This document shows, one piece after another, positions 505 through 37,176 of a stretch of 37,176 nucleotides of DNA. Origin of the DNA: an uncultured Granulosicoccaceae bacterium (GTDB lineage Bacteria; Pseudomonadota; Gammaproteobacteria; Granulosicoccales; Granulosicoccaceae); contig CALIHW010000174.1 of the NCBI GenBank assembly GCA_938020525.1, positions 1-37,176 of the forward strand, given 5' to 3'. Made by a program: the position numbers and the translations under genes. The notes beneath the pieces are model-generated. The model was not told the origin of the DNA. It saw nothing but the letters and a program-made list of their open reading frames with translations, and did no database searches. The first letter of the stretch is position 1, and each line of letters begins with the position of its first letter.

Positions 505-702
505 AAGCTTAAAGAACCCCGAACAGACTTTCTCCCTGGGGAGAATACAAAGCGTCGTTTGCTTTGCAAGAGGGGTGACGACTGTAACTACAAGGCTGTG
601 ACTAACTTACGTAAGCGTCATTCCCCTCCCCGGCGCTTAGACGCCGACCCTCCCTTCGGAGGGTGTCACAACCTTGCGTGCGCTTTATCTTAGCTTGTGT
701 GT
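505..702. repeat. Tandem repeat unit B, abutting msrQ
   Basis: The intact unit of the pair. It contains hairpin 1 TTCTCCCTGGGGAGAA (530-545), hairpin 2 CAAAGC-GTCGTTT-GCTTTG (548-566), the trailer CAAGAGGGGTGACGAC, a 46-bp double-hairpin module, and then GAGGGTGTCACAACC and TTAGCTTGTG up to the msrQ stop. Homology with unit A continues about 50 bp into msrQ. On the msrQ strand the whole block is its 3' untranslated region. Confidence 0.8.
624..669. repeat. 46-bp double-hairpin module, copy 1
   Basis: The sequence contains GGCG-CTTAGA-CGCC (631-644, a 4-bp stem) followed by CCCTCC-CTTC-GGAGGG (648-663) and TGTCA. A second copy with the same GCGCTTAGACGCCGACCCT core lies at 36891-36937. It is present in unit B and absent from the homologous place in unit A, so it behaves like a small separately inserted module. 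Confidence 0.7.
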
Positions 703-1350
703 TTAGCGCTTGATCATCCTGAAAAACCGCCAAATCAGCAGCAAGGCAAATGCACCAAGATATATTGATGGTTCCAATAGCTCGCTCGCCCTCACCTGCC
801 AGATAAAGTGCACCAAAGCCAATAACACTAAAAGATAAATCCAATTGTGCAAAGACTTCCATCGACTCCCAAGCTTACGCACGGCAAACCGATTCGATGT
901 TAGCGCAAGAAACAGCAAGCCGATCCAGGCAATAATCCCGACTGTTATAAACATGTTCTCTACGATAGCGCTCAAGGCATCACCAAGATCCAGACCTTGA
1001 TCGAGTACCACCCAGACAGCCAAATGTACGGTTGTATAGAAAAAAGCGAACAATCCAAGCATTCTTCTAAGTTTCGCAACCGTCGCCCATTTGAAAATAA
1101 ACTGTATCGGTGTGACACAAAGAGTGATCAGAAGCATACGCAAGCCCCACTCACCCGAAATCAGAAGCAGTGCCTCAACCGGATCAACGAACTTGTTTGT
1201 CATCACCCCTGCCACTGCCATGAAAAACGGCACAAGGCAGAGAATGAAAACTGCGGGCTTTAACAACAGCTTACTCATATTGAAGCTTGCCTGAATAATG
1301 CTTGCCCGAGAAAGCGTTACACCTTTAGCGGAGGCAGCACGTGTGTTCAT
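703..1350 (-). CDS. msrQ: MsrQ, heme-binding membrane subunit of the methionine sulfoxide reductase system
   Basis: A 215-residue integral membrane protein of the YedZ/MsrQ family. It passes electrons from the quinone pool through b-type heme to the periplasmic reductase MsrP, which repairs oxidised methionines in envelope proteins. About six hydrophobic helices are visible. Candidate heme histidines lie in FYTTVHLAVWVV and in the pair LHNWIYLL and LALVHFIW. The ATG at 1350 is preceded by GGGAGG seven bases upstream. The internal ATG at 1278 (MSKLLLKPAVF) looks more like the usual family start but has a poor ribosome site, so the longer form was chosen. It lies 49 bases downstream of msrP in the same operon. 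Its 3' end abuts a repeat that also contains a fossil copy of its last codons. Confidence 0.9.
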   Translation of the reverse strand: MNTRAASAKGVTLSRASIIQASFNMSKLLLKPAVFILCLVPFFMAVAGVMTNKFVDPVEALLLISGEWGLRMLLITLCVTPIQFIFKWATVAKLRRMLGLFAFFYTTVHLAVWVVLDQGLDLGDALSAIVENMFITVGIIAWIGLLFLALTSNRFAVRKLGSRWKSLHNWIYLLVLLALVHFIWQVRASELLEPSIYLGAFALLLIWRFFRMIKR

Positions 1351-1399
1351 AGTTTAGCCTCCCTTGTTGGGCATGCAAGAAAGCGAGCGACGAGCATGC

Positions 1400-2362
1400 T
1401 CAAAAGCTTTTCTTTAAGTCCATTCCCTCATATAGGCTTGCTACTTCATCCGCGTAGCCGTTAAACATTTCGGTTTCACGCTTTTCCGAAAACAAAGCAC
1501 TGAAACCACTGCTGTCGCTATCCAACCGCCGCTCTTTAGCTTGACTCCAGCGCGGATGACTAACCTGCGGGTTCACATTCGAGTAAAACCCGTACTCACG
1601 CGGTGCTGATTTATTCCAGCTGGTTGCAGGCTCTTCTTCAACAAAGTTGATAGCCACAATCGACTTAATACTTTTGAAGCCATATTTCCATGGCACAACC
1701 AATCTAAGAGGTGCACCGTTCTGGGCAGGAAGTTCCTTTCCATACAGCCCGACCGCCATCAGAGTTAACGGGTGCATCGCTTCATCAATACGCAATCCTT
1801 CGGCGTAGGGCCATTGCAGTATGGGATACTTCTGACCAGGCAATTTATCCGGATCATAAATTGTTTCAAACTGTACGTACTTGGCTTTGCTGTTCGGTTC
1901 AAAGCGCTTGAGTAAATCCGCCAAAGGAAACCCGACCCAAGGAATAACCATTGACCAGGCTTCTACACAACGAAGACGATAGATCCGTTCCTCGAAGGTG
2001 TGTGGCTTAAGAATATCTTCCAGTGCATAATTTCCGCCTTTCTCGCACTCACCACCAACCTCTACAGTCCAGGGTGTGGTTGCAAGCTTGTCAGCATTCT
2101 TTTTCGGATCACCTTTGTCTGTTCCAAGCTCATAAAAATTGTTGTAGGTGGTAGCCTGTTCAAAAGTCGTTCTTGTTTCATCTGTGCTGCCTGGCCACTG
2201 AGCCAGATCTTTAAATTCCGGTGCCGCTGCATGCAGCTGTTCCGGCATCATTATTCCAGTGCCGGCAGCCCCTAGACCGAGACCGGCGGCTTGCAAGATC
2301 ACCCGTCGTTGTCGAAACACACTTTCGGGGGTTATTTCAGATGATCTGATTTTCTTAGCCAT
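1400..2362 (-). CDS. msrP: MsrP, periplasmic molybdopterin methionine sulfoxide reductase
   Basis: A 320-residue YedY/MsrP-type enzyme that reduces both stereoisomers of methionine sulfoxide in periplasmic proteins. The N-terminus carries a Tat signal: [18 protein letters not shown] (from about residue 18) is a twin-arginine motif followed by a hydrophobic stretch. The sulfite-oxidase-type molybdopterin fold follows, with the molybdenum ligand Cys132 in [11 protein letters not shown] and further family blocks such as [14 protein letters not shown]. Length is normal for the family. It is the first gene of the msrP-msrQ operon, and its promoter should lie in the divergent gap 2363-2634. HOCl- or copper-responsive regulators control this system in some bacteria, but none is visible here. 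Confidence 0.93.
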
Positions 2363-2634
2363 ATCATGTCCGCGTCTGTATGCGATAAACCGAAATTCCG
2401 GATTATTCTCGCACGATTATTGAATTAGTTTTGGGCTGTCTGGATTTTCGCCAAAAAACCGACATCACAGCATTCTAATGATATTAGTTAACAATTTTAT
2501 AACAGATTGTGTGAGATTTTCGAATCCACTGCTAACCTTTAACTAAACCTCTAACCAAGTGGTAAACCAGTACCGCCTGAATCACGCCAGGCCCCAATCT
2601 AACTGGCAAAACTGGGTAACAGAAGCTTTCAATT
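2363..2634. other. Divergent intergenic region msrP / 696-aa gene
   Basis: 272 bases with no credible gene. An A+T-rich core (about 2475-2515, including TTAGTTAACAATTTTATAAC) is the likely promoter area for one or both genes. I could not assign clear -35/-10 pairs or an operator. Confidence 0.4.
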
Positions 2635-4725
2635 ATGACAACAGTAGCGGCAAACAGTTTCTCTTCATCACACCTCACTCTGAATAACCGTGACTCCGGT
2701 ACACGTCGCGATGTCAGAAGCGCGACACAGTTAACTCGCTTGCAACGCACCGGCAACCTGACAGACTGGAAAAGCACTTACGCTGACGTGCAACTTCTGC
2801 CCGTCTCATGCATCGACAGTTATACGAATCTGGTCATCGACGGTAACCCGGTTCCACTTCTTCCAGCGGATAACAGCTCAGTTCAGTTTCCTGCTAACGG
2901 TGAGCATTCTGTTCTGGTTACCAGACACCCGACAGAAAAACTACGCCTGCGTTGCAGAAAGCTCGAAGTAGAATCGTCACCGAATAATAATACAGCGCAT
3001 TACAAATTGTTTCTGGCAGCAGGCTTTGTCGCATACCAGTCTCTTGGTGAAACCAAACGGGCACCAATTTTATTAATACCAATCACCATAGAACGCATGC
3101 GCGGCAGAGACAGTCATTACGCAATCAAATACCAGAACGGAGCACGTCTACACGTAAACCCGCATGTCGCAGATTTGTGCAGCACACATCTTGAGCCATT
3201 GATAAAGCCATTTGAAAGCACAACTGACTTACGCGATTACCTTAGAAATATAAAATCCAAAGTACATAGCAACTTCAATTGCAAGATAACCGCAAATACC
3301 GGCCTTCTAAGTTTACAGTCAGACATTCTCAATAACCTAAGTCAGAAAGACATGGTTGATATTGAACTGGAACGCACCAAACCCGGCACTGAGTTCAGAC
3401 CACTACCAGCCACAACCAGGGAATTTGACCCACAACTGGCGATGCGGATTCTAAGATTCGTCGAACCTGAAGAACTCGTTACAGAGTTACATAACTTTTC
3501 AGGTCAGACTCAAAACACAAAAACGCCTGTAGATGACGTTGATCCTGACCTTGACGATGAAACTTTGGAGAAATACCACAACTGCGCTGGCTGGTTAATT
3601 GATGTTGGACTGGGTCACTGGAAGTTGAAACACATTGCAGCGCTACCTCGTCGGTTACGGACTATCGAATCGAGTATTAATAAGTTGCTTGCCAACAACG
3701 AATTCAATCGATTATTCCGCAATGAATACAGAACGGTAGACATGCTGTTTCGCTTAAATAAAGCGAAAGATAAAATTCTTAATGCACCACCTGAGATGCA
3801 ACACCACTCTATCTCTCTGCATGCCAATGCGAACACCAGATTGCTACTTCAGCAAGCAAAGATACAAGCGTCTTCAATCGAACATGAAATGGAAGTCATT
3901 GACGATACCTTTCACTTAAGTTCTGTGCCAAGCAGCAAGACATTACATAGATTGATCGAAATTATTTCCAGACGTGAAAGCGAATCTCAACTAGCTAACC
4001 CTGACTACTTCAGAGCAAGACGCAAGCTAAACGAAATACTCCGCTACCACAACGGCGTACTCACTGATGGTGATCTTGAGCGACTTAAAAGTCTTGCGAA
4101 GACATTGCAGTTTTCCGAGACCTTCAATGACGATCCTTACTACAAACGCCACTTCGGCTCCCTTTTTAAGGGTACCGACACCAACTGGCAAAGACTCGAT
4201 ACCGTCGTAAATTTCAATCACAGCTTATCATTGGAACTGGGCTCTTCACTGCTGGTTGCCCAATTCTCTGATGAGTGGGTATCATTCGAACGGGATTTCA
4301 GCAGCTTTGCACCAAACATTGAGTCTGCGGCAAGCAGTGCACATAAATTATGCGCGCTGATTCCGATGTTTATCGACAAAGAAACCAAACTCGATAAAGC
4401 CTCCCGGGTGGCAGAAAAATTCAGATGCCGAATTGATGTATGGCAGAAATACCTGCACAAGCACTTCGCAGATACTGAATTAACACCTATGCAATTACTT
4501 TCCAACATGGAACTCGGTGATCACAGCTACCCGACAGTAACTTTGTCACAACAACAGATAGATGAGCGAATATATCGTCACATAGTCGGACGCGGTCTCT
4601 CCAACGATTCAGTTGCCGCTACTGCAGACTGGCTGTTAAATGTCATTGTCGGCTTGCAGACAGACACTGCCACTGTACGTAGATTTCTCGACAAGGAAAC
4701 TGTGCTTCACCGCAGTCTGAGTTAA
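2635..4725 (+). CDS. Uncharacterised 696-aa protein with a DUF4011-like N-terminal region
   Basis: Soluble by appearance, with no signal peptide or membrane segment. Residues about 55-190 resemble the DUF4011 domain found at the front of large SF1 helicase proteins. The family pattern of a helical 'LxLAxGFxxY' block followed by 'R-APxLLIPxxxER' and 'N-P-x-L' is seen here as FLAAGFVAYQSLGE, KRAPILLIPITIERM and GARLHVNPHVADLC. The remaining 450 residues are charged and helical, with no Walker A, DExx, PD-(D/E)xK or Vsr-like motif visible. It therefore looks like a free-standing DUF4011-type protein without the helicase or nuclease that normally follows. The ATG at 2635 has no good Shine-Dalgarno. 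It is monocistronic and convergent with purL. The domain call is recollection-based and moderate; function is unknown. Confidence 0.5.
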   Translation: MTTVAANSFSSSHLTLNNRDSGTRRDVRSATQLTRLQRTGNLTDWKSTYADVQLLPVSCIDSYTNLVIDGNPVPLLPADNSSVQFPANGEHSVLVTRHPTEKLRLRCRKLEVESSPNNNTAHYKLFLAAGFVAYQSLGETKRAPILLIPITIERMRGRDSHYAIKYQNGARLHVNPHVADLCSTHLEPLIKPFESTTDLRDYLRNIKSKVHSNFNCKITANTGLLSLQSDILNNLSQKDMVDIELERTKPGTEFRPLPATTREFDPQLAMRILRFVEPEELVTELHNFSGQTQNTKTPVDDVDPDLDDETLEKYHNCAGWLIDVGLGHWKLKHIAALPRRLRTIESSINKLLANNEFNRLFRNEYRTVDMLFRLNKAKDKILNAPPEMQHHSISLHANANTRLLLQQAKIQASSIEHEMEVIDDTFHLSSVPSSKTLHRLIEIISRRESESQLANPDYFRARRKLNEILRYHNGVLTDGDLERLKSLAKTLQFSETFNDDPYYKRHFGSLFKGTDTNWQRLDTVVNFNHSLSLELGSSLLVAQFSDEWVSFERDFSSFAPNIESAASSAHKLCALIPMFIDKETKLDKASRVAEKFRCRIDVWQKYLHKHFADTELTPMQLLSNMELGDHSYPTVTLSQQQIDERIYRHIVGRGLSNDSVAATADWLLNVIVGLQTDTATVRRFLDKETVLHRSLS

Positions 4726-4762
4726 CTTTAAGCTTCTTTAGTACTAAGCTTGCCGAGTAGTT

Positions 4763-4788
4763 GCCTGAACAATTAGCCTGAACAATAA
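4763..4788. repeat. Tandem 13-mer between convergent genes
   Basis: GCCTGAACAATTA (4763-4775) is followed at once by GCCTGAACAATAA (4776-4788) and ends exactly at the purL stop codon. The 63-bp gap also has two AAGCTT sites flanking TTAGTACTA. No T-tract terminator is evident. Confidence 0.6.
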
Positions 4789-7700
4789 CTAAACCTGCGA
4801 AACCCAGAGCCTTGCGTTGCGGAACATCCGCAACCAGGGCCCGTCTTCCGGCCAGTCTGCAGAGCTGTAGGAATTCTGCACTGACCTAAAAACTCGTTCC
4901 GGGTGCGGCATCATAATATTAAAGCGCCCATCTTCATTACAAAGACCTGTAACCCCTTCTGCCGAACCATTCGGATTCAGTGGATAGCGCTCTGTCACCT
5001 TGCCAAGGTTATCTACGTAGCGCAGTGACACCTGCGAAGTCTTCAAAATATTACTTACCTTGCCTTCTCCATGCGCCACGGCAACAGGAATTCTCGAACC
5101 CTCCATGCCGGTAAATAAAATTGAGGCAGTGGACTGTACCTGTACGGTAGAGAATCTTGCTTCGTACTGCTCTGAAACATTACGTACAAAATCCGGCCAA
5201 TGTGCGGCACCCGGTATTAACTCACGGAGCTTCGACATCATCTGACAACCGTTACATACGCCCAGTGCAAATACATCAGGCCGTGCAAAATACTGCGCGA
5301 ACTGATCACGCGCGCGCTCGTTGTGCAGTATGGAGCTCGCCCAGCCACCACCGGCACCTAGTACATCACCATAGGAAAAACCGCCACACGCAGCAAGACC
5401 TGAAAATTCGTCAAGCGTTACACGGCCAGTAATGATGTCACTCATGTGCACATCAATGCTTTCAAAACCTGCCTTATCAAATGCCGCCGCCATTTCTACC
5501 TGGCCATTAACACCTTGCTCTCTCAATATCGCAATCTTTGGTCGGGTAGTGATAGTTGCAACAATATTATCGACAGGGTTATCAGACGGCTTATAGGTAA
5601 GTTCAGTTGTAATACCAGGGTCTTCAGCATCCGCAATTGTCTCAAACTCCTGCTGCGCACATGCTGGGTTATCCCGGTGTTGCTGCATTTTATAAGACGT
5701 TTCCCACCAAAGTCGCTTCAACTCAACAACAGATTTACTCAAAACTGTTTCATCAGCAACCGAGACAATAAGATCGGGTTCGTCTGTGACGGTACCGATT
5801 TCGGAAATCAGCTGCAGGATATCGTTTTTAGCAAACACTGCCTTCACAGATTCAAGATCAGAACGCCGTACCTGCAGTAAGACCCCAATCTCTTCACTGA
5901 ATAACACACCTGCAATACCATTGTCGCCCCCACTGTCAGAGAAAGAAATCTCTGCACCGCAGCCACCGGCAAAACACATCTCTGCGATTGCAGCAATGAC
6001 ACCCCCGTCAGAGCGGTCGTGACATGCCATCACCAAACCACTACGCATGAGTTCCTGAAGGCTGCTTATAAGCGCTTTAAACTCTATGACGTCATCTACG
6101 TCCGGACATTCGTTGCCTATCTGTCCATGTACCTGCGCAAATACTGAAGCACCCAGCCTGTTTTTCGACTTCCCAATATCTGCAAGCAGCAACACAGTAT
6201 CGGGCGTTTTGACTAATTGTGGCGTCACTGTTTTGCGTACATCGGCAACCTTGGAAAATGCTGTCACCACTAACGATAAAGGTGCGGTAACAGCTTTGTC
6301 CTGCCCATTCTCACTCCAGCGAGTTTGCATGGAGAGTGAATCTTTACCCACTGGAATAGACAGTCCTAACGGCACACAAAAATCACGCACCACTGCTTTC
6401 ACAGTGTCATACAGTGCCGCATCATCTACGTTCGCTGCAGCCATCCAGTTGGCAGACAGCTTTATGTCCTTGATATCTGCCACTGCCACCCCTGCAAGGT
6501 TGGTTAATGCTTCAGCAATAGCAATACGGCCAGATGCCTCAGGTGAGATAAGTGCTACCGGAGAGCGCTCTCCCATCGCCATTGCTTCACCTGTAAAACC
6601 ATCAAAGTCAGCCAGGGTAACCGCGCAATCTGCTACCGGCATCTGATAAGGCCCTACCAGTTGGTCTCGATGCACCAACCCGCCAACAGTACGATCACCA
6701 ATGGTTATCAGGAAGTTCTTCGACGCGACTGTGGGAGACTGCAGCACACGACGTAACGCCTTTTCTATACCCGTCTTTTCATTACTCGTCTTTTCATTAC
6801 TCATCTTTTCTGGGGCCACACTCGTCAGGTCAAGCGGAGCTTCGCAGTGTTTATTCCGTGACGTCTCGCGCTTCATGCGTGGCGGCTTGCCGAGCAATAC
6901 CTGCAGCGACATATCAACAGGTGGCTTGTTAAGCAATCTATCGGTCACGGTAAGATGTTTTTTGTTTGTTGCTACTCCTACAACCGCAAACGGACAACGT
7001 TCTCGGTCACACAGAGCAGTCAGTTCGGGTAACCTGTCAGCAGCCACTGCAAGTACATACCGCTCCTGCGATTCATTACACCAGATCTCCATCGGAGACA
7101 TGCCATGCTCGTCAATTAGAATCTCTCGCAGTTCAAACGTCGCACCACGATCGGCGTCGTGCACCAGTTCAGGCAGAGCATTTGATAACCCACCGGCACC
7201 GACATCATGCATGGATAGAATCGGTGAATTGTCGCCCAGAGAGACACAATGATTAATAACCTCCTGACAACGCCTTTGCATTTCAGGATTACCGCGTTGC
7301 ACTGATGCAAAATCCAGTGAGGCATCACTCTGCCCACTCGCCAGTGATGAAGCCGCACCACCCCCGAGCCCGATAAGCATCGCCGGCCCGCCCAGCACCA
7401 CAATCGCACTGCCATCCGGCACTGGTTTCTTATTAACATTCAGTGGCCGTATATTGCCCAGCCCACCGGCAATCATTATCGGTTTATGAAAACCGCTCCA
7501 GTGGGGCCCACTTTGCGCAGAATCTTCGACTGCCCCCACAGGCACTTCACTTTCAAAGGCGCGAAAGTAACCAGTTAAGTTAGGCCTGCCAAATTCATTG
7601 TTGAATGCCGCAGCACCGATCGGACCTTCCTGCATAATCTGAAAAGCAGACGCAATATGCTCAGGCTTACCCGCGTGCTGCTCCCATTGATGGGTAAATC

Positions 7701-8694: not shown

Positions 8695-8735
8695 GGATTG
8701 TTCCTTTATAAGAAGTAAGAAGAATCAGGGAGTGT

Positions 8736-8750
8736 GGTAACGGTGTTACC
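8736..8750. promoter_or_regulatory. Inverted repeat in the purL leader, possible operator
   Basis: GGTAAC-GGT-GTTACC is a perfect 6-bp inverted repeat about 45 bases upstream of the purL start. It does not resemble the PurR box of enteric bacteria (ACGCAAACGTTTGCGT). It could be an operator or a small hairpin. No regulator is known for it. Confidence 0.3.
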
Positions 8751-10841: not shown

Positions 10842-10853
10842 GAAATCAACAAC

Positions 10854-22676: not shown

Positions 22677-23696
22677 TTGATTCGAGTACTTATTGCAGGC
22701 CTCGGCAATATGGGTCTAAGCCACGCTCTTGCTCATCATAAGAATCCAGATTCCAAAATAGTGGCTCTGGTGAATCGGTCAAAACCGGATCTACCTCGGG
22801 AGCTAAAAAACTATCCAATATACGAATCATACGAGGATGCGCTTGCAGCACAGACACCGGATCTGGCGGTAGTTGCTACCTACACAGACACTCATGCGGA
22901 CTATGCATGTTTGGCAATGGAAAAAGGTGCTCATGTGTTTGTAGAGAAACCACTGGCTACCACTGTTAAAGACGCAGCTCGAGTGGTAGATAAAGCCAAT
23001 GCCACCAATCGCAAACTGGTAGTCGGCTACATTCTAAGGCATCACCCCTCCTGGATCACATTGATCAATGAGGCACGATCACTTGGCGGCCCTTTTGTAT
23101 TTCGCCTGAACCTTAATCAACAGTCCAGCGGTGCAGAATGGGAAACGCACAAAACACTCATGCAAACCACCTCACCTATTCTTGATTGCGGTGTACATTA
23201 TGTTGATGTGATGTGCCAGATCACTGATGCGGCACCGGTGCGGGTTCAGGGAATGGGTCTTAGGTTATCAGACGAAATCGCTGTTGACATGTATAACTAC
23301 GGACAGCTTCAAGTGTTCTTTGAAGATGAGTCTGTCGGCTGGTACGAAGCCGGCTGGGGGCCAATGATGTCAGAGACCGCTTTCTTCGTTAAAGATATCG
23401 TTTCACCTTATGGCTCTGTCTCGATTACCGATGGGAATAAAGGCGCTTCATCTGATATAGACGGTCACACCAAAGTCGGTAGCATTCTGGTACACACTAA
23501 ATCCGGTGACCGTATTATAGAAATGCCACAAGAGCCAGGCCATCAGGAGCTCTGCGATGCAGAGCAATCCTATATGCTGCGTTCTATAGCTGAGGATATC
23601 GATCTCACTCGCCACATGCAGGATGCTATTCAGTCACTAAGAATCTGTATTGCCGGAGACAAGAGCATCCGCACTGGGAAACCAATTGATCTTTGA
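22677..23696 (+). CDS. Gfo/Idh/MocA-family NAD(P)-dependent oxidoreductase
   Basis: A 339-residue sugar or polyol dehydrogenase. The Rossmann start is RVLIAGLGNMGLSHALAHH, the cofactor-adjacent motif is HVFVEKPLATTV, and the C-terminal domain has GYILRHHPSW and CGVHYVDVMCQI with a His in the usual catalytic place. The TTG at 22677 was chosen as start because AAGGAG (22665-22670) lies six bases upstream; the frame is open further back to 22605, inside nagA, but without a ribosome site. It is third in the kinase-nagA operon. Its likely substrate is an amino sugar or a deacetylated, oxidised derivative taken up by the adjacent transporter; the sequence does not say which. Confidence 0.85.
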   Translation: MIRVLIAGLGNMGLSHALAHHKNPDSKIVALVNRSKPDLPRELKNYPIYESYEDALAAQTPDLAVVATYTDTHADYACLAMEKGAHVFVEKPLATTVKDAARVVDKANATNRKLVVGYILRHHPSWITLINEARSLGGPFVFRLNLNQQSSGAEWETHKTLMQTTSPILDCGVHYVDVMCQITDAAPVRVQGMGLRLSDEIAVDMYNYGQLQVFFEDESVGWYEAGWGPMMSETAFFVKDIVSPYGSVSITDGNKGASSDIDGHTKVGSILVHTKSGDRIIEMPQEPGHQELCDAEQSYMLRSIAEDIDLTRHMQDAIQSLRICIAGDKSIRTGKPIDL

Positions 23697-23904: not shown

Positions 23905-24061
23905 GACATTCTCCCTCTGGGTGGGTGTCGTCAAAGGTTTTAGTAACTATCACATGACCTTAACCAGTGCCGCTTTTGTCATTCTCCCCGGGGAGAATCC
24001 GGCGTGTAGTTTGCGCCAGAAGAGGGGTGTGTCTGGTTAGATACTCAATAAGACTTCGAGC
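23905..24061 (+). repeat. Dispersed structured repeat, copy C
   Basis: A stretch of 157 bp that is about 90% identical to 37021-37176. It contains a CTCCC/GGG half-element with GGGTGTCGTCAAAG, a perfect 18-bp palindrome ATTCTCCCCGGGGAGAAT (23981-23998), hairpin 2 CCGGCG-TGTAGTTTG-CGCCAG (23999-24019, one mismatch) and the trailer AAGAGGGGT. No coding potential. Together with the next entry it fills the gap 23905-24212. Confidence 0.85.
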
Positions 24062-24212
24062 TTAAACTTTGAATTTATTGCCAAAAGTACCTCTCTCCCA
24101 TAGGGAGAGTGACTTAGCTTTGGGTACGTGTATTAAAATATAGTCGAACAGGATTTCAAAAAATGCTTTGACGACACCCTCCCCCACGAGAATTACTATT
24201 CGGGGCTTCGAT
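24062..24212 (-). repeat. Structured repeat, copy C' (inverted), 3' UTR of the aminotransferase gene
   Basis: Read on the minus strand directly after the aminotransferase stop: ATCGAAGCCCCGAATAGT, an ATTCTC/GGGAGGGTGTCGTCAAAGCATTT block shared with 37005-37050, a diverged spacer, then a perfect hairpin CTCTCCC-TAT-GGGAGAG (24093-24109). It is back to back with copy C, making a loose inverted pair behind one gene. The block is homologous to the sequence that follows the gene-tail fossil at 36951-37004. Confidence 0.75.
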
Positions 24213-25592
24213 CTACCACAAACCATCGCTTTGCAGATCTGCCATCGTTGCAATGATACTCTCGCGTAATGTCATCGCAATCTCGTCTATCTGCTCACAG
24301 GTTAGTATTAATGGAGGTGACAACACAATCATCGCACCCAGTGGACGTACAATCAGCCCTCGTTGCTGCGCATGCTTTGACACTCGCATACCGATTGCAA
24401 CCTCTTCGTCGTAATACTCACGCGTTGCTTTATCTTTAACAAACTCAAGCCCCATCATAAAATGACTGCCGCGCACATCGCCGACAATATCCAGATCTTT
24501 GAGCCCGAGCAGCACTTTTTCAAAGTGAGGCCCGACGTGCCGAACGTGCTCACAGATGTTTTCGTTTTCAAGAATATCCAGATTTGCATGGGCTGCTGCA
24601 CAACAGGCTGGATGACCTGAATAAGTCATGCCATGCAGAAAGCGGTTACCACTAGCGCTAACGACCTGCATGATTTCGTCGCTGAAAAAAGTGGCAGAGA
24701 TCGGTTGATAACCAGAAGATAGTCCTTTAGCTGTGCAGATGATATCCGGCTGGATATTGAACACACTTTCAGATGCAAACATATGGCCGAGTCTGCCAAA
24801 AGCGGTAACCACCTCATCAGAGATGAGTTTTATATCGTAGTCATTACATACCTGCGCTGTTCGTTGGTGATAACCCGCAGGAGGCACCAGGACTCCACCT
24901 GCTCCCATAATCGGTTCGGCTATAAAGCCTGCAATATTTTCAGCACCGACTTTTTCTATATCCCGCACCATTTCATCGAGCAGAAAATCACAAAACTCAG
25001 CCTCTGTCATATTGTCGTTATGATGATAGACGCATGGTGACGACAGAAAATGCACATACTCTTCAGCTGACTCCCAACCATCCCGGTAACCCGGTGTAGT
25101 CATCGCGATGGCAAGGTGAGTTGAACCGTGATACGCACCAATACGTGACAGGATTTTTTTCTTGCGATAATTGCCTAAGCTGTTCTGGTAGTAGTGCAGT
25201 ACTCGAATTGCCGTGTCATTGGCAACCGACCCAGAGTTACCAAAGTAGACACTATTAAGGTTCGAAGGGGTCATCTGCGTCAAACGCTCGGCAAGCGATG
25301 CGGCAGCGGGATGAGTCAAATTATAGAAGGTAGAAAAGTAATCGAGGTTTTTAAGCTGCTCCGCCACTGCATCCGCAATTTCGCGGCGACCATGTCCGAC
25401 ATTGACACACCAGAGACCTGCCATGCCATCCAGCAAACGCTCACCTCGTTCAGTGAAAACATAAGCACCCTCAGCGGAAGAAATAACAGTACGGGCACCT
25501 TCCTCTTTTAGAGAGTGCAGATCTGAAAATGAGTGCACCAGATGACGGTCCTGCTGCAGGATCAGCTCGGTTCTGTCATTTGGTAAATCCAT
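24213..25592 (-). CDS. Class III PLP-dependent aminotransferase (omega-amino acid:pyruvate type)
   Basis: A 459-residue cytoplasmic aminotransferase. The fold-type I class III pattern is complete: GMAGLWCVNVGHGR near residue 57, SVYFGNSGSVANDTAIR (PLP phosphate), AYHGSTHLA, the PLP-ring Asp259 in KLISDEVVTAFGRLG and the Schiff-base Lys289 in DIICTAKGLSSGYQP. The best matches by pattern are pyruvate-linked transaminases of beta-alanine, taurine or putrescine (SpuC-like); the amine donor cannot be fixed. The start has GAGGAGC upstream. It is monocistronic, divergent from an EamA transporter (25726) that might move the substrate or product. The last 17 codons are duplicated at 36951-37004. Confidence 0.88.
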   Translation of the reverse strand: MDLPNDRTELILQQDRHLVHSFSDLHSLKEEGARTVISSAEGAYVFTERGERLLDGMAGLWCVNVGHGRREIADAVAEQLKNLDYFSTFYNLTHPAAASLAERLTQMTPSNLNSVYFGNSGSVANDTAIRVLHYYQNSLGNYRKKKILSRIGAYHGSTHLAIAMTTPGYRDGWESAEEYVHFLSSPCVYHHNDNMTEAEFCDFLLDEMVRDIEKVGAENIAGFIAEPIMGAGGVLVPPAGYHQRTAQVCNDYDIKLISDEVVTAFGRLGHMFASESVFNIQPDIICTAKGLSSGYQPISATFFSDEIMQVVSASGNRFLHGMTYSGHPACCAAAHANLDILENENICEHVRHVGPHFEKVLLGLKDLDIVGDVRGSHFMMGLEFVKDKATREYYDEEVAIGMRVSKHAQQRGLIVRPLGAMIVLSPPLILTCEQIDEIAMTLRESIIATMADLQSDGLW

Positions 25593-26637: not shown

Positions 26638-26653
26638 CAACCACTCAACGAGA

Positions 26654-27402: not shown

Positions 27403-27418
27403 TTGATATTAATATCAA
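27403..27418. promoter_or_regulatory. Perfect 16-bp palindrome, candidate operator
   Basis: TTGATATTAATATCAA is a perfect palindrome in the 272-bp divergent gap between the anchored protein (start 27274) and selO (start 27547). An A+T-rich even palindrome of this size suits a dimeric helix-turn-helix regulator. The rest of the gap shows no gene. Confidence 0.4.
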
Positions 27419-27546
27419 CGCGTTAAATTCAGATGGATCACACTTTTGGCTGTATCAAATTCATACCAGACAACCCTTACACTGCGCAGCCGTAAAAACC
27501 GTCCGCCAATCGATATACTGCAGATACTCCAGCAACCTACCCCGGA

Positions 27547-29103: not shown

Positions 29104-29125
29104 ACCGATACTTTCTAATAGGCTA

Positions 29126-30328: not shown

Positions 30329-30382
30329 AAGCGCTCCGATGCGAGCAGTCAGCTCATAGACATAACGAGGTGGTGGGGAAGT

Positions 30383-31168: not shown

Positions 31169-31178
31169 AACATTCAAC

Positions 31179-33248
31179 CTATAACTTTTTCTGGAGTGAT
31201 GCAGATGCGGTGATCAACGCATCAACAACCATCGTTTTATTTGAAAGACATAACAATGGATTGATCTCTACCTCAGCGATATCATCATGGTTTAACTCAA
31301 CCCACTGACAAAGATGCAATATCGATTCAATAATCGACGGAATATCTGCGCTGACCTGCCCACGATATCCTTTCAATACCTCTGACAATCTGAGCTCGCT
31401 TAACTTCTGACTGATTGCTTCTTCCGAGACCGGCAACAACATTGAAACTGTATCACGCAATAGCTCTGTCAGTACGCCACCGGCACCGATAGTGAGCTTA
31501 AACAAGCCATCTGGTTCACGTATAATCCCGACTAACATCTCAGTCACCGCACCCTGAAAGTACGGCTCAATCAAAAGTTCGTCTGCCTTACTGAACAAAG
31601 CAGCACAATGCTCACGCAGTGCTTCTTCTGTTTGTACATCAAGTACGACCCCACCCTGCTCAGTCTTATGTGTTACCCCGGAAACTTTTATCACCAGCGG
31701 ATAACCGGTACTATGACTGGCGGTTACCGCCTGATCAATACTTGTCACCTTAACGGCTGCTGCAACCGCTAAACCCGACTCCCTTAATAGCGACTTAGCA
31801 TCATACTCAGACAGTACAGCCGTGGTCTCAAGCGACTTACCGGACTGCAGCAGAGGCTGTGATGGGTTGTCAGGACCACCGATGGCAGAGCCCGCAACCA
31901 CGGCATCAAGCGCTGCCTCAATACCGCCGAAAGTCGGTACCTTCTTTTGCATCAGGTATTCAGCTAGAGACTCTGGCAGATTTTCCGGCAACGTAGCCAG
32001 TACGGCAACCGCTGCACCAGTCTTGTCTTTTGCTGCCAGCAAGGCTTCAACTGCAACCCACCAGCTTTTGTCATCGCAGGTATCATTGCGCGGGAAGTCA
32101 ATCACCAGAAACGTCATTGCCGCAGGCGTCTGCAACATTGCAGCAAAGGTAGCTGTCATCGCTTTGATATCATCCCAAATATAAGTGTGATAATCGAGCG
32201 GGTTTGCGAGTGCTACCATCGGACCCAGTGCGCTGCGAAGCGCTGTTGCCTGTTCTTCACTAAGAGTCGGATATTCCAGCGGTCGATCACCGATCGAATC
32301 GGCCATTAAACTTGCCTCACCACCGGAACAACTCATCGAGGCTATCGTATTATTTTGCAGTGGCCCGCAGCAGTGAAGTAATTTAAGTGACTCAAGAAAC
32401 GATGGAATTGAATTTACCCTTGCAAAACCCAGTCGTTCTATCAATGCCGAGGCTGCTGCATCAGTACCCGCCAGAGAATTAGTGTGCGATACCATCGCAG
32501 ATTGCGAATGCTCCGTTTTACCAGCCTTGATAACTACAATACCGACTCGACGCCTGGCGGCCTTTTCAGCCAGCATCTGTAAGCCTGCAATATCGCCAAA
32601 GCCTTCAATATGTAAACCGATTGCCGTTACACGCTCATCATCGAGTAATGCACTTGCCATATCAGCAAGACTCACTTTGGCCTGATTGCCGGCAGTCATC
32701 ACATAGGCGATTGGCAAACCACGACGTTGCATGGTCATGTTAATCGCAATATTGGATGATTGAGTGATGATCGCAACACCACTTTCGACACGGCGCCCTC
32801 CATGCTGGTCAGGCCACAATAACGCACCATCCAGATAATTAATCAGGCCATAACAATTTGGCCCAATAATCGGCATGCCAGCAGCCGCATCTAATAGTTG
32901 TTCCTGTAACGCAATACCTTCTTCGTCTTCTGCAGACGCTTCACTGAAACCCGATGCAAAACAAACGGCACCACCAGCACCCTCCTGTGCAAGCTCTCTC
33001 ACAATGTCTATAGTCAGGCGACGATTAACGCCAATGAAAGTAGCATCAGGTGCTGCAGGGAGTTCAGCAATTGATCGATAGCAGGAATAACCCTGCACTT
33101 CATCAAGCTTGGGGTGTACCGGCCAAATTTCTCCGTCGAACTGCATGCGCACACACTGCTCAACTACGTTACGCCCCCATGAGCCGCCTACCACTGCAAT
33201 ACTCTCCGGGCGTAACAGTCTGCTTAGGTCAGATGAGCGCTCCATCAT
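31179..33248 (-). CDS. ADP-forming acyl-CoA ligase (acetate--CoA ligase family)
   Basis: A 689-residue fused acyl-CoA synthetase of the NDP-forming superfamily. Domains in order: CoA-binding Rossmann (about 8-110, ESIAVVGGSWGRNVVEQCV), two ligase-CoA flavodoxin-like domains (about 150-440) with the phosphohistidine segment MVSHTNSLAGTDAAASALIE, and a C-terminal ATP-grasp (about 480-689, GLAVAAAVKV, YPLVIKVSGVTHKTEQGGV). By position it should activate a trimethylammonium acid (gamma-butyrobetaine, crotonobetaine or carnitine) with CoA and ATP. E. coli uses the unrelated AMP-forming CaiC for this, so the operon substitutes a different enzyme class. It is separated from the dehydrogenase upstream by an inserted 253-bp element. 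The function is inferred from neighbours. Confidence 0.82.
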   Translation of the reverse strand: MMERSSDLSRLLRPESIAVVGGSWGRNVVEQCVRMQFDGEIWPVHPKLDEVQGYSCYRSIAELPAAPDATFIGVNRRLTIDIVRELAQEGAGGAVCFASGFSEASAEDEEGIALQEQLLDAAAGMPIIGPNCYGLINYLDGALLWPDQHGGRRVESGVAIITQSSNIAINMTMQRRGLPIAYVMTAGNQAKVSLADMASALLDDERVTAIGLHIEGFGDIAGLQMLAEKAARRRVGIVVIKAGKTEHSQSAMVSHTNSLAGTDAAASALIERLGFARVNSIPSFLESLKLLHCCGPLQNNTIASMSCSGGEASLMADSIGDRPLEYPTLSEEQATALRSALGPMVALANPLDYHTYIWDDIKAMTATFAAMLQTPAAMTFLVIDFPRNDTCDDKSWWVAVEALLAAKDKTGAAVAVLATLPENLPESLAEYLMQKKVPTFGGIEAALDAVVAGSAIGGPDNPSQPLLQSGKSLETTAVLSEYDAKSLLRESGLAVAAAVKVTSIDQAVTASHSTGYPLVIKVSGVTHKTEQGGVVLDVQTEEALREHCAALFSKADELLIEPYFQGAVTEMLVGIIREPDGLFKLTIGAGGVLTELLRDTVSMLLPVSEEAISQKLSELRLSEVLKGYRGQVSADIPSIIESILHLCQWVELNHDDIAEVEINPLLCLSNKTMVVDALITASASLQKKL

Positions 33249-33303
33249 CGCAGCACCTTCATTACGCCATCCACACTGCCAGCCGGGTTCTTCAAAGGGC
33301 TAG

Positions 33304-33556
33304 CCTGGATAATTCATGAGGATTCGGCGTCCAGAGGAAATCTGGCTAAACCGGTCGGCCAATCGCCTGAGGAAATGGGGTCTGAGAAACGTGGCCCGCC
33401 ACGTGCCGAAGAGGATGGGCCGAGATGTGACGCCAGATTTTCTTCTGGCGTCGAATAGACACACTGCTATTTTGAAAAAAGTGCTAATGAAGTGGTTTGG
33501 AACTGTATACATAGCTTTTCGCCAATAGTTACTTGTCGCCTGATGAATAATCCAGG
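33304..33556. mobile_element. MITE-like element 2 (253 bp) with CTAG target duplication
   Basis: Terminal inverted repeats: CCTGGATAATTCATGAGG (33304-33321) and the inverse of CCTGATGAATAATCCAGG (33539-33556), 16 of 18 identical. Both ends are flanked by CTAG (33300-33303 and 33557-33560), a perfect 4-bp target duplication. Inside are an inner hairpin GACGCCAGA-TTTTCT-TCTGGCGTC (33429-33452) and a related CCAGA-GGAAA-TCTGG hairpin near 33330. Short frames on both strands have no recognisable content. It lies in the middle of the carnitine operon. CC-starting ends with a 4-bp duplication recall the IS1380 family, but that assignment is from memory only. Confidence 0.85.
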
Positions 33557-34717
33557 CTAGGCGCCCAGCGGTCGCAACAACTCACGACTGATGATATGCC
33601 GTTGAATCTCTGAGGTGCCATCCCATATACGCTCTACTCTGGCATCACGCCAGAAGCGCGCCAGTGGCAAGTCACTCATAAGCCCCATGCCACCATAAAT
33701 TTGTATCGCTTCATCAGTGACTCTAGCCAACATCTCAGAGGCATACACTTTTGCACTGGCGATTTCGCGGTTGGCTGGTAATTTCTGATCAAGGCGCCAG
33801 GCTCCGGAAAGTGTCAGCAGATCAGCCGCATCAATTTCAGTGATCATGTCAGCAATCTTAAAACCAACACCCTGAAACTTCCCGATCGGCTGACCAAACT
33901 GCTTTCGCTCTGCGGCCTGCGCTAACGCCAGATCAAACACACGACGTGCCCGCCCAACACACATAGCCGCAACGGTAATACGCGTGGCATACAACCATTC
34001 ATTCATTATCTTAAAGCCACCGTGTAACTCGCCCAGTATCTGTGACTCGGGCAGACGGCAGTCGTCAAACTGCAAACGGCAGTTCTGATAACCACGATGA
34101 GAAACAGAATCATAGCCCGGCAGAATCTCAAAACCCGGTGTGCCACGGTCAACAAGAAAGCAAGTTATCTTCTTTTTGGTACCACGCGCAGTTTCTTCCT
34201 CACCGGTAGCAATAAACACAATCACAAAGTCTGCGACATTAGCGTGAGATATAAAATGCTTACTACCGTTTACAACCCAATCCCCACCTTGCTTTTTTGC
34301 CGTGCATTTCATCCCACGAACATCCGAACCCGCATCAGGCTCCGTCATTGCCAGCGCATCCATTCGCTCCCCGGTCACTGCGGGCAGCAGATACTTTTCT
34401 CGCTGTTCACCTTCGCATGCCATCAGGATATTCGATGGCCTGCCAAAGAAATGATTCAGGGCCATGGATGAACGCCCCAGCTCGCGCTCTACCAGACAGA
34501 AATCAACGTGGGATAAACCGCCACCACCGACTTCCTCCGGCATGTTGCAGGAATAAAAACCGATATCCATACATTTCTGTTTGATCTCTGCTGCGAGCTC
34601 ATCCGGCACGTTACCTGTACGTTCGACAAGTTCTTCGTGCGGGTACAGTTCTTTTTCACAGAACTCTCGCACGGTAGTGACAATCAGTTCCTGTTCTTCA
34701 GATAATGCAAAGTTCAT
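33557..34717 (-). CDS. Acyl-CoA dehydrogenase, probable gamma-butyrobetainyl-CoA dehydrogenase
   Basis: A 386-residue FAD enzyme of the short/medium-chain ACAD family. Motifs: ALAMTEPDAGSDVRGMKC (FAD/substrate), WVVNGSKHFISHANVADF, RKQFGQPIGKFQGV and YGGMGLMSDLPLARFWRDAR. In the C-terminal RIWDGTSEIQRHIISREL, Asp366 stands where many family members have the catalytic Glu (YEGT). In this operon the likely reaction is gamma-butyrobetainyl-CoA to crotonobetainyl-CoA, passing electrons to ETF. The ATG at 34717 matches the usual family start; a TTG four codons earlier is possible. It lies 35 bases after the carnitine dehydrogenase gene. Its stop codon TAG lies within the CTAG duplicated by MITE-like element 2. 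Confidence 0.88.
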   Translation of the reverse strand: MNFALSEEQELIVTTVREFCEKELYPHEELVERTGNVPDELAAEIKQKCMDIGFYSCNMPEEVGGGGLSHVDFCLVERELGRSSMALNHFFGRPSNILMACEGEQREKYLLPAVTGERMDALAMTEPDAGSDVRGMKCTAKKQGGDWVVNGSKHFISHANVADFVIVFIATGEEETARGTKKKITCFLVDRGTPGFEILPGYDSVSHRGYQNCRLQFDDCRLPESQILGELHGGFKIMNEWLYATRITVAAMCVGRARRVFDLALAQAAERKQFGQPIGKFQGVGFKIADMITEIDAADLLTLSGAWRLDQKLPANREIASAKVYASEMLARVTDEAIQIYGGMGLMSDLPLARFWRDARVERIWDGTSEIQRHIISRELLRPLGA

Positions 34718-34752
34718 AGAAGGCGCCAAGTTATTGAAAGTAGGTGCAGAGA

Positions 34753-35736
34753 TTAAGTAGCGTCTTTCATACGCTGATCATGCTCATTGAGTAACTGACC
34801 GGCCCCCCAGTCGGTCTGCTTAAGACCGCGCATGATCGCAACCAGGTTGTTGTCTCGAATGCGTTCAAGCTCTCTTATCGAATGCATTCCAGATTGTTCA
34901 TCGGACTGTGTTGCTATGGTATCAACCAACTCATCAGTGAGCTCCGGTACATCCATTAACTTGGTCCACGGCCATTGCAAACACGGACCGAACTGAGCAA
35001 TAAAATGCGCCATACCCGCTTCACCACCGGCAACACGGTATGTCTCAAACAAACCCATCTGCGCCCAACGCAAACCGAAGCCATAACGAATAGCATCGTC
35101 TATCTCTTCTGTTGTTGCCACGCCATCTTTTATTAACCATAAACCTTCGCGCCAAACCGCCTCAAGAAAACGATCTGCGATATGCGCATCTATTTCTTTA
35201 CGCACCTTCAATGGTTTCATACCAATCAAAGTGAGTATCTCGCAGGCACGATCAACAACAGCAGGATCCGTTTCAGCACCGGCAACAACTTCGACCAGTG
35301 GCAACAGATAGACGGGATTAAACGGGTGAGCAACGAGTATCTGGCCGGGTCTGGTCGCACCTTGCTGCAACACACTTGGCTTATAACCTGATGTAGAAGA
35401 TCCCAGCACTGCAGACTCGGGAGCATGGTTCTGTATTTCTTTAAATACACTGTGCTTTATTTCTATTCGCTCCGGCACACTCTCCTGAATCCAGTCAGCG
35501 TTTTCTACCGCGGACTTTACATCCGCTACAAAACTCAACGCACCTTCAGGCGGCATTTTAACGTCCGCAAGTTGAGGCAATGACCCACGGGCGTTATCGA
35601 GCATTTCATTGATTTTTCGTTCAGCATCGTCGGCCAAATCGTAAACCCGGACATTCCAGCCGTTTAGTAAAAAACGCGCTGCCCATCCACCACCTATGAC
35701 ACCACCACCGATAATTGCCGCTGTTTTATTGCTCAT
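34753..35736 (-). CDS. lcdH: L-carnitine 3-dehydrogenase
   Basis: A 327-residue NAD-dependent enzyme of the 3-hydroxyacyl-CoA dehydrogenase fold, oxidising L-carnitine to 3-dehydrocarnitine. The NAD loop is AAIIGGGVIGGGWAARFLLN. The catalytic His is in LVAHPFNPVYLLPLVEVV, and the C-terminal domain has IADRFLEAVWREGLWLIKDG and YGFGLRWAQMGLFETYRVAG, all typical of the carnitine-specific branch (about 320 residues) rather than FadB-type enzymes. It sits 81 bases downstream of the beta-keto acid cleavage enzyme, the pairing known for aerobic carnitine degradation in Pseudomonas and relatives. It is cytoplasmic. No homologue of the betainyl-CoA thioesterase that completes that pathway is in the window. 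Confidence 0.92.
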   Translation of the reverse strand: MSNKTAAIIGGGVIGGGWAARFLLNGWNVRVYDLADDAERKINEMLDNARGSLPQLADVKMPPEGALSFVADVKSAVENADWIQESVPERIEIKHSVFKEIQNHAPESAVLGSSTSGYKPSVLQQGATRPGQILVAHPFNPVYLLPLVEVVAGAETDPAVVDRACEILTLIGMKPLKVRKEIDAHIADRFLEAVWREGLWLIKDGVATTEEIDDAIRYGFGLRWAQMGLFETYRVAGGEAGMAHFIAQFGPCLQWPWTKLMDVPELTDELVDTIATQSDEQSGMHSIRELERIRDNNLVAIMRGLKQTDWGAGQLLNEHDQRMKDAT

Positions 35737-35817
35737 GGTTTATTACTCATCTTTATATCACTGCCGGTTTTGGCTCTTGCATCAGTTGGGCTATTGCTAA
35801 TTGTAAGTAACAGGGCC

Positions 35818-36735
35818 TTACGACTTACCGACCGGGGATTGCTTTTTCAGGTTCAACATTTCACGAACTTCCTGCGGGCCCATTACTTTTGAGCCCATGT
35901 TCTCAATAATAGAAACTGATCTTTCAACTAACTGTGCGTTGGTAGCAAGCACACCTTTCTCAAGCCACAGGTTATCTTCAAGCCCCACACGCACGTTACC
36001 ACCAGCAAGTACCGCGGCTGCCACATAAGCCATCTGATTACGGCTTATAGAAAACGCAGAGAATACCCAGTGATCAGGCACATTGTTAACCATTGCCATA
36101 AAAGTATTCAGATCATCCGGTGCACCCCAGGGTATTCCCATACAAAGCTGCACTAGCGCTGGATCTTTAAGAATACCTTCTTCAACCAACTGCTTTGCGA
36201 ACCAGAGATGACCTGTATCAAATGCCTCAATCTCCGGGCGGACTGCAAGATCCGTCATCATCTGCCCCATTGATCGGAGCATCCCCGGTGTATTGGTTGC
36301 AACGTAATCCGCTTCTGCAAAGTTCATAGTGCCGCAATCGAGCGTGCAGATCTCCGGCAGACATTCGGCAACATGTGCAACTCTTTCTGCTGGCCCGACT
36401 AGGTCGGTACCGGCACTCGGTGGTAACGGATTTTCACCGCTACCGAAAACCAGATCGCCCCCCATTCCGGCAGTCAGGTTAAGTACAACATCTACCTCAC
36501 TCGCTCTAATTCGATCAGTGACCTCTCGGTAGTACTCAAGCTTACGCGAAGGTGTGCCTGTATCTGGGTCACGCACGTGGCAGTGCACCACAGCAGCACC
36601 TGCACGGGCAGCATCAATAGCGCTGTTGGCAATCTGCTCCGGACTGCGGGGAACATGGGAGGAGCGATCCTGCGAGCTGCCGGACCCAGTGACCGCGCAG
36701 GTGATAAAAACATTCTTGTTTGGCGTCAGACTCAT
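35818..36735 (-). CDS. BKACE (DUF849) enzyme, probable 3-dehydrocarnitine-cleaving
   Basis: A 305-residue zinc-dependent beta-keto acid cleavage enzyme: 3-dehydrocarnitine plus acetyl-CoA gives betainyl-CoA plus acetoacetate. The zinc and substrate motif is AAVVHCHVRDPDTG, with VFITCAVTGSG at the N-terminus, VVLNLTAGMGGDLVFG, CTLDCGTMNFAEADYV and the C-terminal NVRVGLEDNLWLEKGVLATN. The DCGTMNF block and the adjacent carnitine dehydrogenase point to the dehydrocarnitine subgroup of this family, the step I recall as CdhC in Pseudomonas; the symbol is left blank because the naming is from memory. It is the first gene of the operon; AAGG lies nine bases before ATG 36735. A weak TACAAT -10 (36764-36769, minus strand) lacks a clear -35, suggesting activator dependence. 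Confidence 0.87.
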   Translation of the reverse strand: MSLTPNKNVFITCAVTGSGSSQDRSSHVPRSPEQIANSAIDAARAGAAVVHCHVRDPDTGTPSRKLEYYREVTDRIRASEVDVVLNLTAGMGGDLVFGSGENPLPPSAGTDLVGPAERVAHVAECLPEICTLDCGTMNFAEADYVATNTPGMLRSMGQMMTDLAVRPEIEAFDTGHLWFAKQLVEEGILKDPALVQLCMGIPWGAPDDLNTFMAMVNNVPDHWVFSAFSISRNQMAYVAAAVLAGGNVRVGLEDNLWLEKGVLATNAQLVERSVSIIENMGSKVMGPQEVREMLNLKKQSPVGKS

Positions 36736-36890
36736 AGAAACAGACCTTACTGTGTTTGATGCGATTGTATCTGTGTCTGCGTAGCAGGCACACGGGTTTA
36801 TTCACCTGACTGTGCTCCGCTTACGACATAGTTTGCTTTCGAAGAGAGGACACCAGAGGTTCAATCAGATGCACTATTTGAGCGACATAA

Positions 36891-36937
36891 CCCTCCCCTG
36901 CGCTTAGACGCCGACCCTCGCGTTCCGGGAGGGTGTC
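36891..36937. repeat. 47-bp double-hairpin module, copy 2
   Basis: CCCTCCCCTGCGCTTAGACG, then CCGACCCTCGCGTTCCGGGA and GGGTGTCA. It shares the core GCGCTTAGACGCCGACCCT and the final GGAGGGTGTCA with 624-669. It lies upstream of the carnitine operon and directly before the aminotransferase-tail fossil. Confidence 0.7.
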
Positions 36938-36950
36938 AGTCATTGCTGAC

Positions 36951-37004
36951 CGCGAGAGTATTATTGCTACCATGGCAAACCTGCAAAACGTTGGTTTGTC
37001 ATAG
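36951..37004 (+). pseudogene. Fossil of an aminotransferase 3' end (17 codons plus stop)
   Basis: The plus strand reads RESIIATMANLQNVGLS and stop, against RESIIATMADLQSDGLW and stop at the end of the aminotransferase gene (24213-24266). About 10 of 54 bases differ. The first three changes (ATT/ATC, GCT/GCA, ACC/ACG) are silent, which suggests the fragment came from a functional paralogue. Homology runs on past the stop into the shared 3' repeat. No upstream coding sequence is attached; the 47-bp hairpin module lies just in front. Confidence 0.75.
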
Positions 37005-37176
37005 ATCGAAGCCCCGAATAGTCATTCTCCCTGGGGAGGGTGTCGTCAAAGCATTTAGTGACTATCACATAACCATAACCAGTGCTGCTTTTGTCATTCT
37101 CCCTGGGGAGAATCCGGCGTGTAGTTTGCGCCGGAAGAGGGGTATGTCTGGTTAGATATTCAATAAGACTTCGAGC
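37005..37176 (+). repeat. Dispersed structured repeat, copy D (runs off the window)
   Basis: ATCGAAGCCCCGAATAGT is shared with the 3' side of the aminotransferase gene. From 37021 the sequence is about 90% identical to copy C (23905-24061) up to the last base of the window. It contains ATTCTCCCTGGGGAGAAT (37096-37113), an intact hairpin 2 CCGGCG-TGTAGTTTG-CGCCGG (37114-37134) and AAGAGGGGT. The remaining operon-upstream gap (36736-36890) shows no gene. Confidence 0.85.

Follow-up and report, generated by a model that had tools for sequence, protein, structure and literature searches.

Four copies of a two-hairpin repeat recur in a 37,176-nucleotide stretch of DNA (hereafter the window) from an uncultured Granulosicoccaceae bacterium (contig CALIHW010000174.1 of assembly GCA_938020525.1), and they raise the question of what this repeat is and why its stems stay paired while their sequence changes. 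As contig 174, the window belongs to a 4.53-Mb draft genome (the own genome, G000; 224 contigs, 93% complete). The original prediction left the choice between a repetitive extragenic palindrome (REP)-like element and an RNA element of the 3' untranslated region (3' UTR). The REP-like half of that proposal fits inverted doublets and a high copy number; nothing shows an RNA role or calls for one. Our best explanation, to which we give a probability of about 60%, is a layered family of REP-like palindromes that lacks a REP-associated tyrosine transposase (RAYT) and serves an IS1182-type insertion sequence (IS) as a landing pad.

Re-reading of the sequence confirmed the four copies at 366–394, 530–576, 23981–24028 and 37096–37142, with arms, loops and trailer as predicted. 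A covariance-model scan of the window with filters off recovered them at 513–586 (77.2 bits), 37080–37153 (76.1), 23965–24038 (68.1) and 316–404 (64.1), and the fifth-best match scored only 20.1 bits; copies 2, 3 and 4 had contributed to the model, which leaves copy 1 with the one independent score. In the own genome, a pattern of loop plus trailer with up to two mismatches gave 168 matches against none for the reversed pattern used as control. Allowing one mismatch, the same pattern matched 106 times in the own genome, 23 times in G003 (the draft metagenome-assembled genome of a congener, an uncultured Granulosicoccaceae, 92–93% complete) and once in each of five others among 143 genomes, with 0 or 1 control matches per genome. 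The covariance-model search proposed with the original prediction likewise returned many copies, at least 85 in the own genome, where every candidate scored matched, and 43 in G003. Beyond these two, the model matched three times in G005, once each in G009 and G011, and weakly, one to three times each, in G023, G051, G056 and G061; the remaining 48 of the 57 genomes had no match, stricter filters having been applied over 40 of the genomes. Contig breaks are frequent inside the repeats in both G003 and the own genome, including the right end of the window, so the copy numbers are probably too low and the end units are cut.

No match to window stretch 500–720 was found among plasmids, the loop pattern was absent from viral contigs, and Rfam 15 gave no match in the window at the gathering score. 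The loop pattern did occur in 29 contig stretches, 15 from G003 and 14 with single matches elsewhere. When the 14 were rescored by the covariance model along with 11 other weak loci, the best of them reached 18.6 bits, compared with 44.4 for the best G005 copy, 22.7 for the G009 copy and about 20 for the weakest G003 copies. We take these 14 to be chance matches, among which a weak true relative may be present.

Each basic module has two hairpins: the outer one reads CTCCC-loop-GGGAG, and the inner one, which comes after it, has a variable stem. Two such modules, X and Y, stand in inverted order. Across the stem types the GAGGGG/CCCTC flank is kept, and so is the inner loop, which reads GTNGTTT in X and, in most Y, CTTAGA. 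The 152 collected copies have CAAAGC as their inner stem in 48 cases, TCCGGCGT in 34 (and in three more with a changed trailer), TCCAATGC in 34 and GAAGC in four, besides rare variants; this collection required at least four paired bases, and unpaired copies are therefore under-represented. In an alignment of 43 chosen X sequences, from which copies whose hairpin 1 holds an inserted element were left out, 93.1% of the cells are paired and 36 are changed on both sides, compared with at most 56.9% and 11 in controls with one arm slid. Y lies downstream of the A-type (CAAAGC) hairpins, inverted, and reads CCCTCCC, stem, CTTAGA (variant loop TACC), stem, ACCCTCCC..GGGAGGGTGTC. For 26 Y sequences, chosen from a list in which pairing was required, 96.2% of the stem cells are paired against at most 40.8% when slid, and two-sided changes occur in 22 cells, with two at most in the slid controls. 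Furthermore, a Y search with free arms over 143 genomes gave 86 matches (40 in the own genome, 32 in G003, 14 in G009 and none elsewhere; reversed control 0). Of the 68 listed among these 86, 62 are fully paired counting G-T, and they include six perfect Watson-Crick stems (CGGCG, CCGAG, CAGCG, CAGAG, CCACG and CGGAG). With distinct arm pairs counted once, 9 of 15 are fully paired compared with 47 of 210 when arms are exchanged. The stems have truly changed in pairs, through few independent events. The predicted changes in both arms that keep the pairing are thus borne out, by three main stems in X and the six Watson-Crick stems in Y. The 14 Y-type hairpins of G009, where X has a single weak match, show that an abundance of Y does not require X.

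Two extensions of the fold were considered as well. A GAGGGG/CCCTCC inner stem lengthened by spacer bases looked good in the window copy alone and was rejected, given that arms from the same unit scored 3.64 and arms from different units 3.87, with 1901 of 2000 permutations as high. A closing CCCC/GGGG stem that would turn X into a three-way junction appears in some folds, two of the five X folds being weak (z –1.2 and –1.4), and we do not claim it.

Why the pairing persists can be read in two ways. Under our best explanation, the changes would be kept because the DNA must form hairpins. As to the originally predicted selection on folded RNA or DNA, a DNA structure is more likely to be the selected form than a 3'-UTR RNA. 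Alternatively, the changes are unselected, one arm of a palindrome correcting the other by template switching during replication; in palindromes, a single event of this kind changes both arms. The few subtypes, each with a nearly invariant stem, look like rare events followed by copying and would suit such correction. The loops and flanks, however, are nearly fixed across stem types in both X and Y, which correction alone need not give. We regard this alternative as somewhat unlikely, and it would replace only the last step of the best explanation.

The original prediction treated the copies as one homogeneous element. Instead, the CAAAGC and CCGGCG copies belong to two element types that have a hairpin module in common. 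In A-type units, X is followed by an inverted Y; 43 units contain both (only such units were counted), 31 of which measure 140–148 bp, with some fuzziness in the match start. They often stand in tandem, 12 of 30 first copies having a further X within 160 nt. The folded DNA of the window unit (copy 2 plus Y) shows an outer hairpin, an inner hairpin, a stem, an inner hairpin and an outer hairpin (z –4.7). B-type copies (CCGGCG), usually with an inverted CCAATGC partner, lie inside a miniature inverted-repeat transposable element (MITE) of about 285 bp that ends in GAGGGTGTCGYCAAAG and also folds well as DNA (z –4.1). Fifteen of the 25 own copies measure 286–288 bp; the window copy has 261 bp, and six G003 copies have 237–269 bp.

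No target duplication was recognised around the doublets. The idea that tandem arrays arose by duplication of the upstream flank was unsupported, the flank scores of 11 arrays being 6.05 within and 5.62 between loci. Sixteen putative single units at first gave 6.59 against 5.18 (19 of 2000 permutations as high), a difference due to two array members (L233 and L005); the 14 units left without them scored 5.21, with 985 of 2000 permutations as high. Separately, G005 holds a compact doublet (L221:3467-3545, G005:C47) of the form GAGAATCC-hairpin-GGAAGAGGGG-8 nt-CCCCTCTTCC-hairpin-GGATTCTC, with unlike inner hairpins, which may be close to the ancestral form.

The ends of the MITE connect it to an IS. 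Contigs in G003 begin or break off about 120 bp into an element that has a GAGGGTGTCGYCAAAG end, and a reading frame begins soon after that end. The MITE and the left end of this IS share the 16-bp GAGGGTGTCGYCAAAG, and the right IS end has its first 10 bases in common with it. Such ends are found in both family-rich genomes, with 12 start sites in G003 (96–100% identity) and three in the own genome. The first 139 amino acids of the IS match DUF772 (33.7 bits, 3.6e-8, cut-off 23.1) and the IS1182 transposase model NF033551 (41.2 bits, 1e-10). The transposase, which we take to be DDE-type, probably moves the MITEs as well, to judge from the common ends. A search of the own genome with the full IS1182 model gave one weak partial match (E 0.004). 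Four full-length IS1182 genes in G003 were considered as the source of the ends and rejected: two adjacent genes and one further gene have other inverted ends, and a script scan found no inverted ends around the fourth (C85). At L228 (G003:C3:1500-6500), a pair of full-length IS1182-family genes stands head to head with abutting inverted ends, as if one had inserted beside the other; these ends differ from those of the GAGGGTGTCGYCAAAG-ended IS.

The insertion sites of the IS and the MITEs carry the landing-pad reading. The motif CTCCC is found in the 16 nt preceding the IS end at 13 of 15 left ends and at all six right ends, compared with 2.3% of background 16-mers from the own loci, and it precedes 11 of the 13 left ends that were fetched by IS or end sequence rather than by the hairpin. 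With up to two mismatches allowed, 19 of 21 IS ends, 38 of 77 type B ends and 7 of 18 ends of a third type, C, fall inside family hairpins, the MITE tallies being biased upward since many loci were fetched for holding the hairpin. Another nine ends (one IS, six B and two C) fall inside an unrelated palindrome. Among the hosts are the A hairpin, in either arm, and the Y hairpin, as well as hairpins that MITEs B and C carry; an IS or MITE sits within a MITE hairpin at L004, L058, L016, L024, L030, L081 and L009. Exact 5-bp duplications flank 9 of 31 elements with GAGGGTGTCGYCAAAG ends, compared with 10 of 930 exchanged flank pairs, and at least one of the nine elements is of type C (L081). In four of the nine (L013, L080, L081 and L091) the duplication lies within a hairpin, the duplicated part being the loop and about two stem bases.

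Taken together, these data suggest the following putative model. Inverted X..Y pairs of about 145 bp, resembling REPINs (REP doublets forming hairpins), constitute the base layer. One pair form, with stems CCGGCG and CCAATGC, is contained in the ~285-bp MITE with GAGGGTGTCGYCAAAG ends. The same ends bound the IS1182-type element, whose transposase would mobilise the MITEs. Nearly all IS insertions and about half of the MITE insertions are located at the tip of an outer hairpin, which the transposase may recognise as a structure. Each inserted MITE adds two outer hairpins; as a result, targets multiply and insertions nest. As for the doublets themselves, a lost RAYT and the IS1182-type enzyme are both candidates for having spread them.

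Several observations weigh against this model, in addition to the bias in the MITE tallies. Exact CTCCC precedes only 17 of 33 left and 14 of 30 right ends of own-type B elements, and 43 of 116 ends, 33 of them type B, lie in no recognised hairpin or palindrome. An exact 5-bp duplication is lacking at 22 of the 31 elements, and five of the nine duplications (L011, L017, L018, L026 and L039) lie outside a recognisable hairpin. Because of these five, and because no more than 38 of 77 type B ends lie in hairpins of the family, our confidence in the landing pad and in its stronger form given below is lowered. All targets share CTCCC, so that a preference for sequence is not separated from one for structure. 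In the X alignment, pairs with two-sided change (5 against 4.3 shuffled, and 5 also when slid by one) and further pair types (13 against 14.7) are not above shuffles; in the Y alignment the corresponding counts (4 against 2.8 and 6 against 5.8) are not clearly above them, which indicates few independent lineages. The NF033551 score is far below the family cut-off of 270, only 139 amino acids being assembled. Finally, no complete IS copy was seen in either genome, the interior being unassembled, as expected of a multicopy IS in a draft.

A stronger form of the model would have self-multiplying landing pads, two with every MITE insertion, the transposase reading the shape and loop of an extruded hairpin tip while the stems drift freely as long as their arms pair. 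We consider this form rather doubtful.

Might the doublets instead be REPINs proper, spread by a since-lost RAYT, a Y1 tyrosine transposase, with the IS1182-type element as a later guest? Inverted doublets, tandem clusters and an intergenic position biased towards gene 3' ends favour this explanation, and known REPs are targeted by several IS families (PMC1525189, in the part cited). A search of 57 genomes (the own and 56 others, E <= 0.001) found Y1 genes in 34 of them, and G003 carries a broken RAYT-like Y1 gene in two frames (L249, C66 ~1379–1704; E 0.0013, below threshold). In the own genome, however, the RAYT search suggested with the original prediction found no Y1_Tnp domain (PF01797) even at E <= 10, in a draft 93% complete, and at the same threshold G003 yielded nothing but its broken fragment, whose 3.1-kb locus contains no family hairpins. 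Around 14 Y1 loci of relatives, a scan for tag plus hairpin showed a few GTAG, GGAG or CGTC hairpins and no GGGAG-hairpin-GAGGGG. The GTAG/CGTC tag is absent from the foot of the hairpin, which is of the GGGAGAATA or GGGAGGGT type in the alignments, GTAG occurring within the loop. Moreover, copies carried by MITEs are bounded by inverted ends and some of them by 5-bp duplications, which Y1 enzymes are not known to make. A lost RAYT as the full explanation is therefore unlikely.

The copies lie near gene 3' ends, as originally predicted. Among 69 clusters, 37 at contig ends and four inside open reading frames (called by length alone) were dropped; the 28 scorable ones comprise 13 co-directional, 12 convergent and three divergent contexts, with 37 neighbouring 3' ends and 19 5' ends. 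In this small sample, gaps between divergent genes are thus under-represented. This bias and the paired changes would also suit a 3'-UTR RNA element acting in mRNA stability or termination under selection on the folded transcript, a reading that we hold very improbable because the window contains no Rfam family at the gathering score, the copies lie in both orientations and nest in one another, they are confined to few genomes with up to 168 in one, like mobile DNA, no T run directly follows the hairpins in the copies inspected, and the same 3' bias is known for REPs (PMC3733652, in the part cited).

In the window itself, all features are given on the plus strand. Copy 1 (316–404) is the X module of an inverted-doublet unit, with hairpin 2 (CAAAGC-GTAGTTT-GCTTTG) at 366–384 and a trailer to 394; its hairpin 1 is interrupted by about 15 nt, and no Y partner was seen. 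Copy 2 (X, 514–586) has hairpin 1 at 530–545, hairpin 2 (CAAAGC-GTCGTTT-GCTTTG) at 548–566 and a trailer to 576. Its inverted Y partner at 624–667 runs through CCCTCCC, CGGCG-CTTAGA-CGCCG (631–646), ACCCTCC..GGAGGGT (647–664) and GTC. Copies 3 and 4 are embedded in a longer, different element. Copy 3 (23965–24038, stem CCGGCG/CGCCAG) lies in the 261-bp type B MITE with inverted ends at 23921–24181, whose partner module at about 24070–24126 has no hairpin 2 and which lacks an exact 5-bp duplication; the target hairpin arm CATTCTCCCTCTGG lies to its left (23907–23920). Copy 4 (37080–37153, stem CCGGCG/CGCCGG) lies in a second type B MITE (37036–37176) cut by the contig end, with the outer arm of the target unit, GAAGCCCCGAATAGTCATTCTCCCTGGG, at 37008–37035. 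The CCGGCG stem can be read as seven pairs including a closing T.G pair. Upstream, a decayed doublet unit (TAGTTTGCTTTCGAAGAGAGG .. CCCTCCCCTGCGCTTAGACGCCGACCCTC .. GAGGGTGTC) spans 36829–36937 and has a fuller relative at L225 in G003.

The predicted position behind stop codons applies to three of the four copies and fails for the last. Copies 1 and 2 lie between a lactate/malate-dehydrogenase-type gene (end at 181) and a convergent ferric-reductase-like gene (end at 703), and copy 3 lies between convergent genes with ends at 23696 and 24213. Copy 4 is at the contig end, about 360 nt upstream of the start of the minus-strand gene 35818–36735. Near the contig end, a short stretch between two repeat units (36940–37013) looks by eye like a copy of the tail (24182–24290 minus, 3' end) of the aminotransferase gene at 24213; it also resembles the tail of the likely G003 orthologue at L225.

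Two side observations concern other insertion sites. The GAGGGTGTCGYCAAAG ends also recur in a second kind of target, a palindromic repeat unrelated to the family (..GGATGCGC..GCTTATCCCCCCTAC, with variants), at L016, L038, L041, L153, L159 and L161. At L028, just upstream of a MITE at 1414, the half-hairpin arms GTCATTCTCCCT, TGATTCTCTCTGG, GTCATTCTCTCTGG and CGATTCTCCCTGG stand in tandem before the insertion.

The family resembles the REPINs and bacterial interspersed mosaic elements of Pseudomonas and E. coli in its short inverted-pair palindromes, tandem clusters, high copy number, intergenic 3' bias and long single-strand fold; it differs in lacking a detectable RAYT or GTAG/CGTC tag, in its two-hairpin module and in the unlike loops of its partners. 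For the definitions of REPINs and tags, the requirement for RAYTs, the occurrence of REP dimers in palindromes and tandem clustering, we follow the cited parts of PMC3116915, PMC3733652, PMC8266576 and PMC2817692, the last of which also gives (T)GTGGGAG as the start of some Pseudomonas REPs. The CGTC-tagged REPs (PMC3733652, same part) form dimers without a dedicated transposase, some dimer families reportedly lying inside palindromes; their tag, stem length and loop differ, and here the palindrome is used by an IS1182-type element. In the cited sections of PMC5678879, IS1272, counted in the IS1182 family, targets inverted repeats or stem-loops and replaces them without duplications, inserting also at non-repeats; one branch of its model yields a duplicated loop, and a review is cited for palindrome targets in IS1182 members. 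The transposase family and the insertion at inverted repeats are thus alike, whereas here 9 of 31 elements have 5-bp duplications, the target arms persist on both sides and the MITEs carry further targets. Insertion into palindromic repeats is also described for ISPsy8, ISPa11, ISPpu9/10, ISRm22 and ISRm19, which target REPs (PMC1525189, as far as cited); these belong to other families (IS3, IS110 and IS4, with preferences also in IS256 and IS5), and the main text consulted does not mention IS1182. In the available parts of open-licence papers on Granulosicoccus repeats and insertion sequences or on IS1182 MITEs, no account of the family was found.

In summary, REPs are usually explained by RAYTs, and here REP-like palindromes are abundant in two species with no intact RAYT in sight, their hairpins being the target of an IS whose MITEs carry copies of them. 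Whether hairpin-reading transposases alone can keep palindromic repeats thereby becomes testable. In addition, its numerous natural insertions at the tips of hairpins could serve to test structure-directed insertion in the IS1182 family, for which the cited part of PMC5678879 describes target replacement.

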